Part shown: in pieces, positions 4,641 through 17,714 of the stretch
How the letters are laid out: each line of letters begins with the position of its first letter
Position numbering within the stretch: position 1 is the first letter of the stretch
Source of the DNA: a virus
Direction: 5' to 3' (one strand)
DNA: 28,628 bases
IMG/VR virus record: IMGVR_UViG_3300010042_000018
Coordinates: 1 to 28,628 of that record
The notes under the pieces: generated by a model
The model's database searches: none
The model's input: the letters and a program-made list of their open reading frames with translations, nothing else
What the model was told of the DNA's origin: nothing
Position numbers and translations under genes: made by a program

Positions 4641-5344
4641 AGCAGCGCCTCGAGCAACCTGACCCGGCCCGGCTTGATGATCTCCCCAGCCTCGAACATG
4701 CCGGCGAACTCTTCCGGGTTCTGTACCGTCCCCAACATGGTGGGCTTGAAACGAATGAGGTCGCCTGCTTCGAAGTCTGCCCTTAACGGGAGAGACATGC
4801 TCAACGTGGCGATCAGACCGTTGTACTGGACCCTGCGCACCATGTTCGGAGCGCCGTCGATCTCGGCTCCGATGCCGATCCATTTGCCGAAGGAGAGCAC
4901 CCGCCCATACGGTGTCAGATCAACGGTCAGGGAGACGGAGCCCTCCAGAGCGTCGGCTGTGATTTCCGCCACCGGGTTGAATGCCCAGTTCTGGTCATTG
5001 CTCCACGGCTCGTCATTGCTCCAGGGCAAGCCATCGATATCGATGCTCTCGGTGGCGCCAAGCTCTATTGCGGAGACCGTTTGCGCGCTCCGAGTAACCG
5101 GCATGCGGAATACCCGGCCGGCATAAACCTCCGAGATCAAGCCGCTGATCATGGTCGAGTCGACATCGCCGCCGAAGTTGGAGAACTCAGCCTCCAGCAC
5201 GGCGCGGCCGCCAATCTCAGGATGGCTTTGCTGAACGGTTGCCAGGGTGAACCCGGACCGGACATTGGACCCCGCTGCCCGCAGCATCTGACGATACGGG
5301 ATGACTGCTGATGGCCAGTCGCTGATTTCAACGGCAATGCTCAC
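4637..5344 (-). CDS. distal tail protein, unknown family
   Basis: A 235-aa protein directly after the tape measure gene, the usual position of the distal tail (Dit-like) protein in siphophages and of gp12 in GTA. It is beta-rich with two near-identical tryptophan turns (WSNDEPWSNDQNW, about 128-140). The C-terminal part (FEAGDLIRFKP...) resembles a small barrel. It overlaps both neighbours by four bases. The assignment rests on gene order; no catalytic motif is visible. Confidence 0.65.
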   Translation of the reverse strand: MSIAVEISDWPSAVIPYRQMLRAAGSNVRSGFTLATVQQSHPEIGGRAVLEAEFSNFGGDVDSTMISGLISEVYAGRVFRMPVTRSAQTVSAIELGATESIDIDGLPWSNDEPWSNDQNWAFNPVAEITADALEGSVSLTVDLTPYGRVLSFGKWIGIGAEIDGAPNMVRRVQYNGLIATLSMSLPLRADFEAGDLIRFKPTMLGTVQNPEEFAGMFEAGEIIKPGRVRLLEALL

Positions 5345-7182
5345 GGCCGAACAACCCCGTATTTGGAGCTATCCGATGCCCACTTTGACTGGGCACGGCC
5401 CGCCGTGGAAACAGCCCTTCGTTCGGCAGCACCAGCTTCGCCGCGCGCGACATTCTTGACGTAAGACGAGAAGTTGCCGTTGTCGTCGGCTGCCACGCCG
5501 AAGGTTACGTGCGTGGAGCCACCACCGTCCAGAGCTTGGCCCGGCTTGGTGATGTCGACGCGCTCGTTTGGCGATTTGCGGAAAGTCACCAGCTGGCTGT
5601 CTATGCCGCCGCTTCCGCCTGGCATGATCGACCCGCCGCGGGCGAACCCGAATAGGCTGGACAGGAATGTGGCAATTGGGTTTCCGCCAACGCCGCCGCC
5701 GATACCACCGCCCATGCCTCCAAACAGGTTTTTTAGACCGATTTCCGCGATCGATGCCAGCACATCGCTTATTGCATCTCCGACAGACTTGGAACCGTCG
5801 ATGATGCCTTTGAAGGCGGAGCCAATAGTACTGGCGATGTCGTCAGCGATCGATGTCACGCTGCTGGCCATGTCGGTCATGCCGTTGCCCAAGCCGGTCA
5901 TGATGTGACCGCCAATTTCGTGCATCAATTTCGACGGCGACTGGATCTGAAAAAGGCTGGTGAAGCCGTTCGCAATGTTGCCGGGGATATCCATAATCCC
6001 CTGCTTAACTTCGCCCCACTTCGCGTTAATGCCATCGGCTAGGCCCTGAATAATCTGGCCGCCGATTTCGAGCATCTTGCCAGGCAATGCGGCGAAGGCT
6101 TCCACGATCCAGATCGTGAAGTCGCCAATGACCGCAGTGACTTCAGCCACCTTTGTGGTGATCGAGTCCCAGCCTCGAAGGAAACTGGCCCATTCGTTGA
6201 CGGCGAACGAAGCCAAAATCCCACCGAGATTTACGATTTCAGGCCAGAACAGCACGACAGCCGCGGTCAGCCCGGCGATTGCGGCCGCCGCGGCAACTAC
6301 GGGGAGGCCAAGCGTCCCGACCGCCAACGCGACTGCACCCAGAGGAATGGCAAGGGCGGCGAAGGCAATGGTGAGGCCACCAAGCACGGTGATCGCGTTT
6401 TGTGCCTGGGGAGACAGGTCACGGAACCCGGCCGCGATCGTGACCATCCAGTCGGAAAATGAGGTCAGAGCAGGCAGTAGGTTGGCAGTCAGTTCCGCAG
6501 TTATGCCGGCGAACGCTCCCTGTAACCTTGAGATATTGTCGTTGAACGCCTCGGCGTTGGCGCCCATCTCGGCCGTGAACACTTGGCCAAAGCTGTCAGC
6601 CTCCGCCATCATGGTCTTAAGCGCCTCAGAGCCGCCGTTGAGCAGCGGGATCATGTCGGCGCCAGATCGCCCCATAAGCTCCATGGCAAGGGCGGTCTTC
6701 TCGGCCCCGTCCGGCATACCGGCAAGGGCATCGGCAATCTGTGCCAGGACATCGCTGGACGATTTCAGCGTCCCGTCTTCGTTGGCGATATCGATACCGA
6801 GCTGCGAGAAGGCGGCGCCCGCCGTTCCCGTGCCGCTGGCCGCATCCCTCATGTTGCGCGACAGCCGCCCAATGCTGCCCTGCAGCCCCTCAAATGCCAC
6901 ACCGGACAGGTCAGCGGCATACTTCAGGCGAGAAAGCTCCTCGATCGGCACGCCGATGCTCTGGGCAGCCTTGGACATATCATCGGCAGCATCAATCGTG
7001 CCTTTGACCGCCAGTGTCAGGGCGCCGCCGATGGCCGCAGCAGCGGCGGCCGCAACAACTGCACCTTGCCTGATGGTGGTGCCCAGGTTCTTCATGCCCA
7101 TCTGGGCGTTTCTCAGCCCGGCGGTGAAGCCCGCTGAGTTCAACCCGAGGTCGACCCGGAGCGCGCCGATTACCGCAGCCAT
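5341..7182 (-). CDS. tail tape measure protein
   Basis: A 613-aa Ala/Gly-rich protein. It begins with a beta strand (IGALRVDLGLNSAGF) typical of tape-measure N-termini, then long helices with GLRNAQMGMK-like repeats. A hydrophobic segment at about 260-315 probably contains two membrane-spanning stretches. It ends with a Gly-rich region (GGMGGGIGGGVGG) and a small C-terminal domain. At roughly 0.15 nm per residue it would set a tail of about 90 nm, counted from length alone. The start has GGAG about eight bases upstream. The plus-strand gene at 7237-7533 separates it from the chaperone genes, which is unusual. Confidence 0.9.
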   Translation of the reverse strand: MAAVIGALRVDLGLNSAGFTAGLRNAQMGMKNLGTTIRQGAVVAAAAAAAIGGALTLAVKGTIDAADDMSKAAQSIGVPIEELSRLKYAADLSGVAFEGLQGSIGRLSRNMRDAASGTGTAGAAFSQLGIDIANEDGTLKSSSDVLAQIADALAGMPDGAEKTALAMELMGRSGADMIPLLNGGSEALKTMMAEADSFGQVFTAEMGANAEAFNDNISRLQGAFAGITAELTANLLPALTSFSDWMVTIAAGFRDLSPQAQNAITVLGGLTIAFAALAIPLGAVALAVGTLGLPVVAAAAAIAGLTAAVVLFWPEIVNLGGILASFAVNEWASFLRGWDSITTKVAEVTAVIGDFTIWIVEAFAALPGKMLEIGGQIIQGLADGINAKWGEVKQGIMDIPGNIANGFTSLFQIQSPSKLMHEIGGHIMTGLGNGMTDMASSVTSIADDIASTIGSAFKGIIDGSKSVGDAISDVLASIAEIGLKNLFGGMGGGIGGGVGGNPIATFLSSLFGFARGGSIMPGGSGGIDSQLVTFRKSPNERVDITKPGQALDGGGSTHVTFGVAADDNGNFSSYVKNVARGEAGAAERRAVSTAGRAQSKWASDSSKYGVVRP

Positions 7183-7236: not shown

Positions 7237-7533
7237 ATGCTGAAAATATTGATGGCGATGAGCCTTGCCGTGGCTCCAGCAGCAGCAGCGGAGACAAGTG
7301 CCACCTGCACCACTGCTGCCTCTAGAACGGCAGCTTTTTTGATTGAGGAGGCGAAGGGGACACGTCACGAAGCCCAGATAGCCGGCGCCATTGCAGCGAA
7401 GGGATACGGATCCATCATTGAAACAATCGCGGCAGGTTTGACTGAAGATCAGTGCGCACTACTTTTCGCAGCGCCAGACAGCACGTTGAGAGCCATGGCC
7501 ATCACTATGCTCCCCGAGCGGATGGGCAAATAG
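7237..7533 (+). CDS. small exported protein, candidate moron
   Basis: A 98-aa protein read against the tail operon. An AAGGAGA Shine-Dalgarno at 7224-7230 lies well placed before the ATG. Residues 1-18 form a signal peptide (MLKILMAMSLAVAPAAAA) with an AxA cleavage site. The mature part is about 80 aa, helical, with two cysteines that could form a disulfide in the periplasm. Third codon positions are less GC-rich than in flanking genes by eye. An inserted, oppositely oriented, signal-bearing gene between chaperone and tape measure is typical of prophage morons that alter the lysogen. Function unknown; no clear promoter was recognised in the short upstream gap. Confidence 0.75.
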   Translation: MLKILMAMSLAVAPAAAAETSATCTTAASRTAAFLIEEAKGTRHEAQIAGAIAAKGYGSIIETIAAGLTEDQCALLFAAPDSTLRAMAITMLPERMGK

Positions 7534-7544
7534 GGCCGCCACGG

Positions 7545-7787
7545 CTACCCCTTCCGCCGGGCGGCCATGATGGATTTGAACGCCGCGATCTGCTCGTCGG
7601 TAGTTTGCCCTTGGCTAGTTGCCCTCGGATTTAGGAGCGCTTGGAGCTTCGGCAGCTTTTTGGGCTGGTGGTAGGCGTACGCCGTGAGAGATGCAGCCTG
7701 GTGGGCCAGAAAAACCATGTCGTCGACCTGGCGTTTGCGTGCCGCAATTAGCCCCTCGATGGACAACTGGTATTCCCGGACCGACAT
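7545..7787 (-). CDS. tail assembly chaperone, C-terminal (T) part
   Basis: From the first ATG this is an 80-aa basic helical protein. The same frame continues open upstream of that ATG and encodes SSLLRSWIELGQSPATFWDM, matching the LG.SP..FW.(M/L)(S/T)..E pattern of GTA/phage tail chaperones. The ATG at 7787 therefore cuts the conserved motif and is probably not the true start. This frame lies -1 relative to the preceding gene (7850-8203), as in the lambda G/T pair, so the product may be made as a G-T fusion by ribosomal frameshifting. The upstream part is listed separately. Confidence 0.75.
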   Translation of the reverse strand: MSVREYQLSIEGLIAARKRQVDDMVFLAHQAASLTAYAYHQPKKLPKLQALLNPRATSQGQTTDEQIAAFKSIMAARRKG

Positions 7788-7955
7788 GTCCCAGAACGTC
7801 GCGGGCGACTGGCCGAGTTCGATCCAGCTTCGCAGCAGCGAGGAGAAATCTATCTCTTCGCTACTGCCTTCCGAGGGTTCGGATTTGGCGCCGCCTCCGC
7901 TGAACCGCCACCCATGGCCGCGCCGATGGCCGCCGACCAGATGGGCAGGTCGGTC
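7788..7955 (-). other. cryptic N-terminal extension of the T chaperone / -1 frameshift window
   Basis: On the minus strand the T frame has no stop from about 7955 down to 7788, although it has no convincing ATG or GTG with a ribosome site. It overlaps the 3' end of the G-like gene in the -1 frame. The non-overlapping part (7849-7788) encodes the conserved chaperone motif. No perfect X-XXY-YYZ slippery heptamer is visible; the closest is GCCAAAT (minus strand, plus coordinates 7883-7889). A non-standard start or shift site remains possible. Confidence 0.5.
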
Positions 7956-8203
7956 ATTTCAACCAGGTCGCCAACCTCGTCGGTCGACATTCCCTTGTGG
8001 TGCTTCAGCAGTCCGGCCCAAATGAGCAAGACGAGATCGTCAACAGCATCGGCGCCCTTGGCCTCAAGGCCAGCGAGGAGATCGCTAAGCGGCGCATCGG
8101 GGCGCGCCGCCTTGATGGCGGAGAGCGCGTTCAGCGAGTAGGCAAGCGTGAAAGTGCCGGCCGGAATAGCGACTTGCGCTTCTGCACGCATGGGGTTTGC
8201 CAT
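7850..8203 (-). CDS. tail assembly chaperone, N-terminal (G) part; GTA gp10-like
   Basis: A 117-aa protein resembling GTA gp10/Phage_TAC_11-type chaperones: an N-terminal strand pair (VAIPAGTFTLAYSLNALSAI), a helical core (about 45-100) and a flexible Pro/Asn/Ala tail ending in KAVAKR. It starts at an ATG that directly abuts the TAA of the tail tube gene (TAAATG), just after the tube as expected for the G chaperone. It probably coats the tape measure during tail assembly. The low-complexity tail is where a -1 shift into the T frame would occur. Confidence 0.75.
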   Translation of the reverse strand: MANPMRAEAQVAIPAGTFTLAYSLNALSAIKAARPDAPLSDLLAGLEAKGADAVDDLVLLIWAGLLKHHKGMSTDEVGDLVEMTDLPIWSAAIGAAMGGGSAEAAPNPNPRKAVAKR

Positions 8204-8620
8204 TTACGGGGTGTCATCCCATACTTCTTCGCCCGATACCGCGACCGTGATGGTGGCAGTCATACGGTCATCGATCGGGATGGCTTTGCTGAACCCGGTG
8301 ATCGCCGCGTCGAAGGTCACAGTGACGCCGTTGGGAAAGGTAATGCGGTGCGGCACGGTGAGGCCAGAAGCCAGAAATCCACGCAACAGAACGTCCGTGG
8401 CGTTGCCTGGAACCCAGTTGATCTCGAAGCTGGCCTCGCCAGTGTCGATCAACCCGGCGATATATTCACGGCGCCGGCCGGGGCTCTGCATGTGGGTGGC
8501 GTCAACCCGGTCAGAATTCGCTTCGCCGGGGGTGACGCTGAAAACCTCACCGATCTCAACGAACGCGCTACTGCTGTAAATCTCGTATTTGGTGCCATAG
8601 CCGATCTTGGCGTCTGTCAT
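8204..8620 (-). CDS. major tail tube protein
   Basis: A 138-aa protein with the layout of lambda gpV-type tube proteins: an N-terminal YGTKYEIYSSS strand, an EIGEVFSVTPGEANSDRVDAT loop, a central GEASFEINWVPGN strand and a C-terminal ITGFSKAIPIDDRMTATITVAVSG strand pair. It lies directly before the two chaperone genes and the tape measure, the universal siphophage order. It should polymerise as stacked hexamers to form the tail. Confidence 0.85.
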   Translation of the reverse strand: MTDAKIGYGTKYEIYSSSAFVEIGEVFSVTPGEANSDRVDATHMQSPGRRREYIAGLIDTGEASFEINWVPGNATDVLLRGFLASGLTVPHRITFPNGVTVTFDAAITGFSKAIPIDDRMTATITVAVSGEEVWDDTP

Positions 8621-17643: not shown

Positions 17644-17714
17644 TCAGTACAGCGGGATTTGAACCCACGGCCTCCGCCCATTGGCAGCGCTCTATCAGCC
17701 TGAGCTATGTACTG
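17644..17714 (-). tRNA. tRNA-like gene with abnormal anticodon arm
   Basis: On the minus strand a perfect seven-base-pair acceptor stem (CAGTACA with TGTACTG), a D arm (GCTC...GAGC, preceded by TA) and a T arm (GTGGG, loop TTCAAAT, CCCGC) are all present. Between D and T arms there are only 20 bases instead of 22-23. The anticodon stem CTGCC/GGAGG has a central mismatch, the loop AATGGGC lacks U33, and the variable loop is two bases. The nearest anticodon reading is TGG (Pro). The 3' CCA is not encoded. It is either a degenerate tRNA or a functional tRNA-like RNA. Confidence 0.6.

Follow-up and report, generated by a model that had tools for sequence, protein, structure and literature searches.

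A conserved C_CCY tetramer as the putative −1 frameshift site of a tail assembly chaperone gene pair in a phage and its relatives

Organisation of the tail module

The window, that is, the whole stretch of DNA analysed (28,628 nt, the viral record IMGVR_UViG_3300010042_000018), carries on its minus strand a siphophage-like tail module in the order major tail protein, G, T frame and tape measure protein; the coordinates below refer to this strand unless stated otherwise. The gene for the major tail (tube) protein (8204-8620; PF16461, E = 9e-42) lies upstream of G (7850-8203), which encodes an upstream tail assembly chaperone of 117 aa of the GTA-gp10 type (PHROG 2115, tail protein, E = 8.5e-9), and the gene for the tape measure protein (5341-7182; PHROG 8462, E = 1e-114) lies downstream of T. 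The T reading frame (7545-7958) is −1 relative to G, overlaps its last 109 nt and is open to a TAG at 7547-7545, so that two overlapping ORFs are found between the tube and tape measure genes, as in known G-GT pairs.

The G protein of the window matched PF11836 (Phage_TAC_11, GTA-gp10) with E = 7e-4 and 20 bits, below the curated cut-off of 27.8 bits, which was passed by the G proteins of two relatives, L034 (30.5 bits) and L045 (28.8 bits). When T was read from the conserved CCC described below, it matched PHROG 19318 (E = 1.4e-16), and its match to PF09550 (Phage_TAC_6; E = 0.017, 16.0 bits) was below the cut-off of 23.4 bits, the best relative reaching 20.7 bits. G and T are in or near the families of gp10 and gp10.1 of RcGTA (PF11836/PF09550), a likeness by family only.

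The interval separating T from the tape measure gene holds, on the opposite strand, an ORF of 98 aa with a signal-peptide-like start (7237-7533, plus strand). Opposite-strand genes occupy the same slot in the Paracoccus phage Pthi1 (L003, 3832-4161) and in a Devosia plasmid prophage (L069), and this slot may collect cargo genes. In five relatives (L009, L010, L022, L042 and L045), the major tail protein apparently continues in frame into an extra Ig-like domain of about 90-100 aa before G, which is absent from the window and from most relatives. Elsewhere in the window, ARAGORN detected a tRNA-like gene (17644-17714) whose anticodon it did not resolve.

The T frame is conserved upstream of any standard start codon

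In the window, the motif LGQSPATFW of T (7791-7817) is encoded ahead of the first ATG of its frame (7787); the frame is open for 171 nt upstream of this ATG and contains no ATG, GTG or TTG before the motif. The earlier note on this DNA had described an LG.SP..FW motif upstream of the only ATG of T, in a −1 frame open for more than 150 bases; the frame and the position of the motif were as described, but the ATG is not the only one, as further in-frame ATGs are present downstream of 7787.

The comparison with related phages that the same note had proposed was carried out on two sets. A scan of viral contigs with the major tail protein gave 47 contigs, and the set was completed with the Agrobacterium phage Rivra and with phages of Paracoccus. 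Of its members, 35 non-redundant ones were used for the statistics; being relatives, they are not independent observations. Two further scans provided 26 more contigs in which the pair could be tested, which are partly redundant and in many cases closely related, and so do not represent 26 independent events. The sole match of a scan of genome contigs was a spurious one from Streptomyces.

Wherever a relative had both genes, T lay in the −1 frame with respect to G; this was so throughout the first set, including its 35 non-redundant members, and in all of the 26 further contigs. The FW pair of the motif was nearly invariant among 37 T proteins, and the protein sequence of the T frame was conserved in the relatives back to the CCC, whereas the ATG at 7787 was not found in them and is peculiar to the window. 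Sequence comparison thus reveals a T gene that keeps its −1 relation and its FW motif in the homologues but has no conserved start of its own.

A C_CCY tetramer is conserved in the G frame

As already pointed out in the earlier note, the G/T overlap of the window contains no canonical X_XXY_YYZ heptamer in the G frame, which is the usual mark of a G-GT pair, although not strictly required. The putative shift site is G_AAC_CCT (7874-7880), the conserved core of which is C_CCT at 7877-7874. A C_CCY in the G frame (codons NNC CCY) was present in all 35 non-redundant relatives, as CCT in 30 and as CCC in five; where the overlap held more than one T-frame CCC, the homologous one was chosen by alignment. 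CCT accounts for 16% of the proline codons in the G bodies of the relatives, in which CCG is the commonest, and the binomial chance of finding at least 30 CCT is 3e-19, and that of finding CCY in all of them 7e-12, both calculated ignoring relatedness. In the second set, C_CCY was found in 25 of the 26 contigs. The exception, L133, is the only member with C_CCG, and its close relative L134 has C_CCT; its C_CCG may be a genuine but weak site, or else the result of drift or of an error in sequencing.

In an alignment of the G proteins built blind to the shift site, the matching proline (P110) was nearly invariant. A canonical heptamer was present in 11 of the 35 relatives (AAACCCT in ten and GGGCCCT in one), and the other 24, including the window (GAACCCT), are non-canonical and keep the C_CCY alone. 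On a tree of G plus T from which the shift region was left out, at least 18 changes were required in the three leading bases of the heptamer and at least six switches between canonical and non-canonical sites, with no change in the CCC. The conserved motif is of the Z_ZZN type and would permit cognate re-pairing in the A site.

Three relatives delimit the position further. In L011 and L035, the T frame is closed by a stop one codon ahead of the CCC, and G of the Sphingomonas prophage L071 ends directly after CCT CAG; since these stops bracket the site, a shift would be confined to the C_CCY spot, provided that the site is homologous among them. As judged from these sequences, the association of a −1 T frame, the FW motif and C_CCY in 35 relatives, with C_CCY in 25 of 26 more, is beyond chance, although conservation of the site could come in part from the double coding of this stretch.

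Putative stimulatory elements flank the site

A putative 3' stimulatory hairpin (7832-7867; −22.9 kcal/mol) is located downstream of the shift site, with a stem of 10 bp, an A.C mismatch, 4 bp more and a loop of 6 nt, separated from the site by the 6-nt spacer CGGAAG (7868-7873). Upstream, a Shine-Dalgarno-like GGAGG (7894-7898) is found 13 nt from the heptamer. Strong anti-SD pairing 3-16 nt upstream of the heptamer was detected in 71% of the relatives, compared to 0-17% in control windows.

The hairpin region of the window folds moderately better than its shuffles (z = −2.2). Most relatives have equivalent hairpins, with a different register of the 3' arm in some of them, and the base of the stem peaks across the relatives at exactly +6 nt: an uninterrupted Watson-Crick stem of at least 7 bp started there in 51% of the 35, whereas the background, taken at the other offsets outside the immediate site, averaged 0.7% and did not exceed 8.6%. 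About half of the relatives lack such a stem at +6, and the subgroups of L006, L015, L017 and L029 apparently use other structures. The 5' boundary remained at +6 while its 3' partner moved from alignment column C43, in most relatives, to C46 in L035 and L045 and to C49 in the window and L043, and it was likewise at +6 in the 63-nt hairpin of the subgroup rich in AAACCCT. Across the alignment, 93.8% of the stem cells were paired in the correct register. Because the pair-by-pair covariation within subgroups was slight, this constancy of position is the stronger argument for the hairpin. The spacing lies within the 4-10 nt 3' of the motif looked for in Z_ZZN sites and within the usual 5-9 nt between slip site and structure (PMC5009743), and would fit the presence of C_CCY in the A site as the hairpin meets the ribosome.

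The possibility that non-canonical sites carry the stronger hairpins was also considered and rejected, as the opposite was found (median −21.1 vs. −30.5 kcal/mol at canonical sites, p = 0.03, uncorrected for relatedness).

Canonical sites in distant phages

In phages and prophages that are more distant but share the gene order, the overlap contains GGGAAAC, GGGAAAG, AAAAAAG, CCCAAAG or AAACCCT, and the annotation of the Streptomyces phage phiSASD1 joins the two genes into one. Given these outgroup sites and phiSASD1, the pair is naturally read as a −1 frameshift of the known G-GT kind, of which the C_CCY form is, on comparative grounds, a variant. The lambda-like G-T fusion put forward in the earlier note gains support in the same way, from the motif in the homologues, the −1 relation and the canonical sites at the equivalent place in the outgroups. 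The Devosia plasmid relative L069 combines a canonical GGGAAAG with a CCGCCCT located 12 nt further downstream, and possibly represents a transition from one type of site to the other.

Proposed mechanism and alternative explanations

These data make it very probable that a G-T fusion is produced at low level by −1 programmed frameshifting, through slippage of tRNA-Pro at C_CCU. A ribosome translating G would reach ...AAC CCU with tRNA-Pro in the A site and would be held there by the SD-like GGAGG behind it and by the hairpin 6 nt ahead; tRNA-Pro would then slip back by one base, exchanging its pairing with CCU for one with the overlapping CCC, after which the T frame would be read as UCG GAA GGC... 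The fusion would consist of residues 1-110 of G followed by about 109 residues of T (around 219 aa), with the predicted junction peptide ...NPNP-SEGSSEEIDFSSLLR. Re-pairing of the P-site tRNA need not be perfect, in such a way that the tetramer C_CCY would be the functional unit, with AAACCCY and GGGCCCY as stronger heptamer versions in some relatives. The roles of both proteins would be those of lambda: G would bind the tape measure protein, and the tail tube protein would be recruited by the T portion of the fusion.

Production of T as a separate protein, by termination-reinitiation at a non-AUG codon over the G stop (ATA in ATAG) aided by the upstream purine-rich sequence, appears quite improbable. 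This codon is ATA or CTG in the window and in several relatives, and the T gene of Pthi1 is annotated from such a CTG, but among the 35 relatives it is CTA in 12, CTG in nine, ATA in seven, GTA in six and TTA in one, and CTA, GTA and TTA are not initiators. ATA/CTG reinitiation was rejected on this lack of conservation. In addition, the G stop of L006 is downstream of the FW motif, so that reinitiation would be unable to make the motif there, and the C_CCY, the fixed spacing of 6 nt and the canonical heptamers of the outgroups would be left unexplained. It is extremely improbable that the ATG at 7787 gives rise to a short T protein and that the frame upstream is open by chance: an ORF of 80 aa does start at this ATG, and the T gene of Rivra is likewise annotated from downstream of the FW motif, but this start is missing in the relatives and would leave out the best conserved portion of T, and the protein sequence of the frame upstream of it is conserved back to the CCC.

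A shift at another sequence of the overlap, or a two-tRNA slip elsewhere, is very improbable as well. The earlier note had singled out GCCAAAT (7889-7883), the YYY core of which is in the correct frame, as the best candidate; it was rejected here, as it is not conserved and falls outside the bracket set by L011 and L035, whose T-frame stops would force the shift to occur at or after C_CCY, G of L071 ending right after it. The conserved site is GAACCCT (7880-7874) instead. Of the unusual shift signal or start that the note had envisaged, the signal is retained, as the SD-like sequence, C_CCY and hairpin between 7898 and 7832, but an unusual start found no support.

Comparison with known frameshift systems

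The arrangement resembles that of lambda G/GT and its conserved phage relatives in the order of tube protein, G, −1 T and tape measure protein and in a fusion near the end of G, but the sites of the lambda type are heptamers of the form X_XXY_YYZ, for example GGGAAAG, whereas the clade of the window conserves only the A-site part, C_CCY. With the Z_ZZN tetramers of the IS1 and IS3 families (PMC4066793), it shares a single-tRNA A-site motif that needs a strong 3' structure and the preference for C_CCU and C_CCC over C_CCA and C_CCG, although the tetramers reported as naturally common are A_AAG, U_UUY and A_AAA rather than C_CCY in phage tail genes. With the IS3 pseudoknot as stimulator, the order of efficiency in E. 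coli was A_AAG >> U_UUC > U_UUU > C_CCU = C_CCC > A_AAA; C_CCU and C_CCC were the only C-tetramers clearly above background, C_CCA and C_CCG being among the motifs merely 1.8- to 3.6-fold over it, and the tetramers required a strong stimulator (PMC4066793). By analogy, the use of CCU or CCC instead of CCG in the clade, together with the strong hairpin, matches these rules. Escherichia coli dnaX and IS911 also combine an SD-like stimulator upstream with a structure downstream, but slip on A_AAA_AAG and not on C_CCT. The Listeria phages PSA, A118 and A500 also show slippage of tRNA-Pro at CCC codons in phage structural genes, but their shifts are +1 and in other genes. Other non-canonical motif patterns were described in actinobacteriophages with PRFect (PMC10885494). 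A narrow text search of the open-licence literature found no paper on an AAACCCT phage frameshift signal, and priority is not claimed.

C_CCY was weak in this assay of E. coli ribosomes and tRNAs, whereas those relevant to the clade would be alphaproteobacterial. The G and GT products of lambda are made in a molar ratio of 30:1 (PMC5009743), and given this ratio a weak shift site could suffice. It seems fairly likely that, in this clade of mostly alphaproteobacterial phages and prophages, slippage of a single tRNA-Pro at C_CCY without P-site re-pairing replaced the canonical heptamer, with compensation by the stimulators, a fixed 6-nt geometry and a changing hairpin partner. If confirmed, this would be a conserved natural use of a tetramer measured earlier in E. 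coli constructs, and the presence of canonical and tetramer sites within one clade would offer an evolutionary test of the roles of P-site re-pairing and of the stimulators.

As predictors and annotators mainly seek X_XXY_YYZ heptamers, G/T pairs of this kind are missed, for example in Rivra. The annotated T gene of this phage (gp13; L002, 3612-3866) begins after the conserved FW motif and the deposited protein appears truncated; several other annotated relatives look alike.
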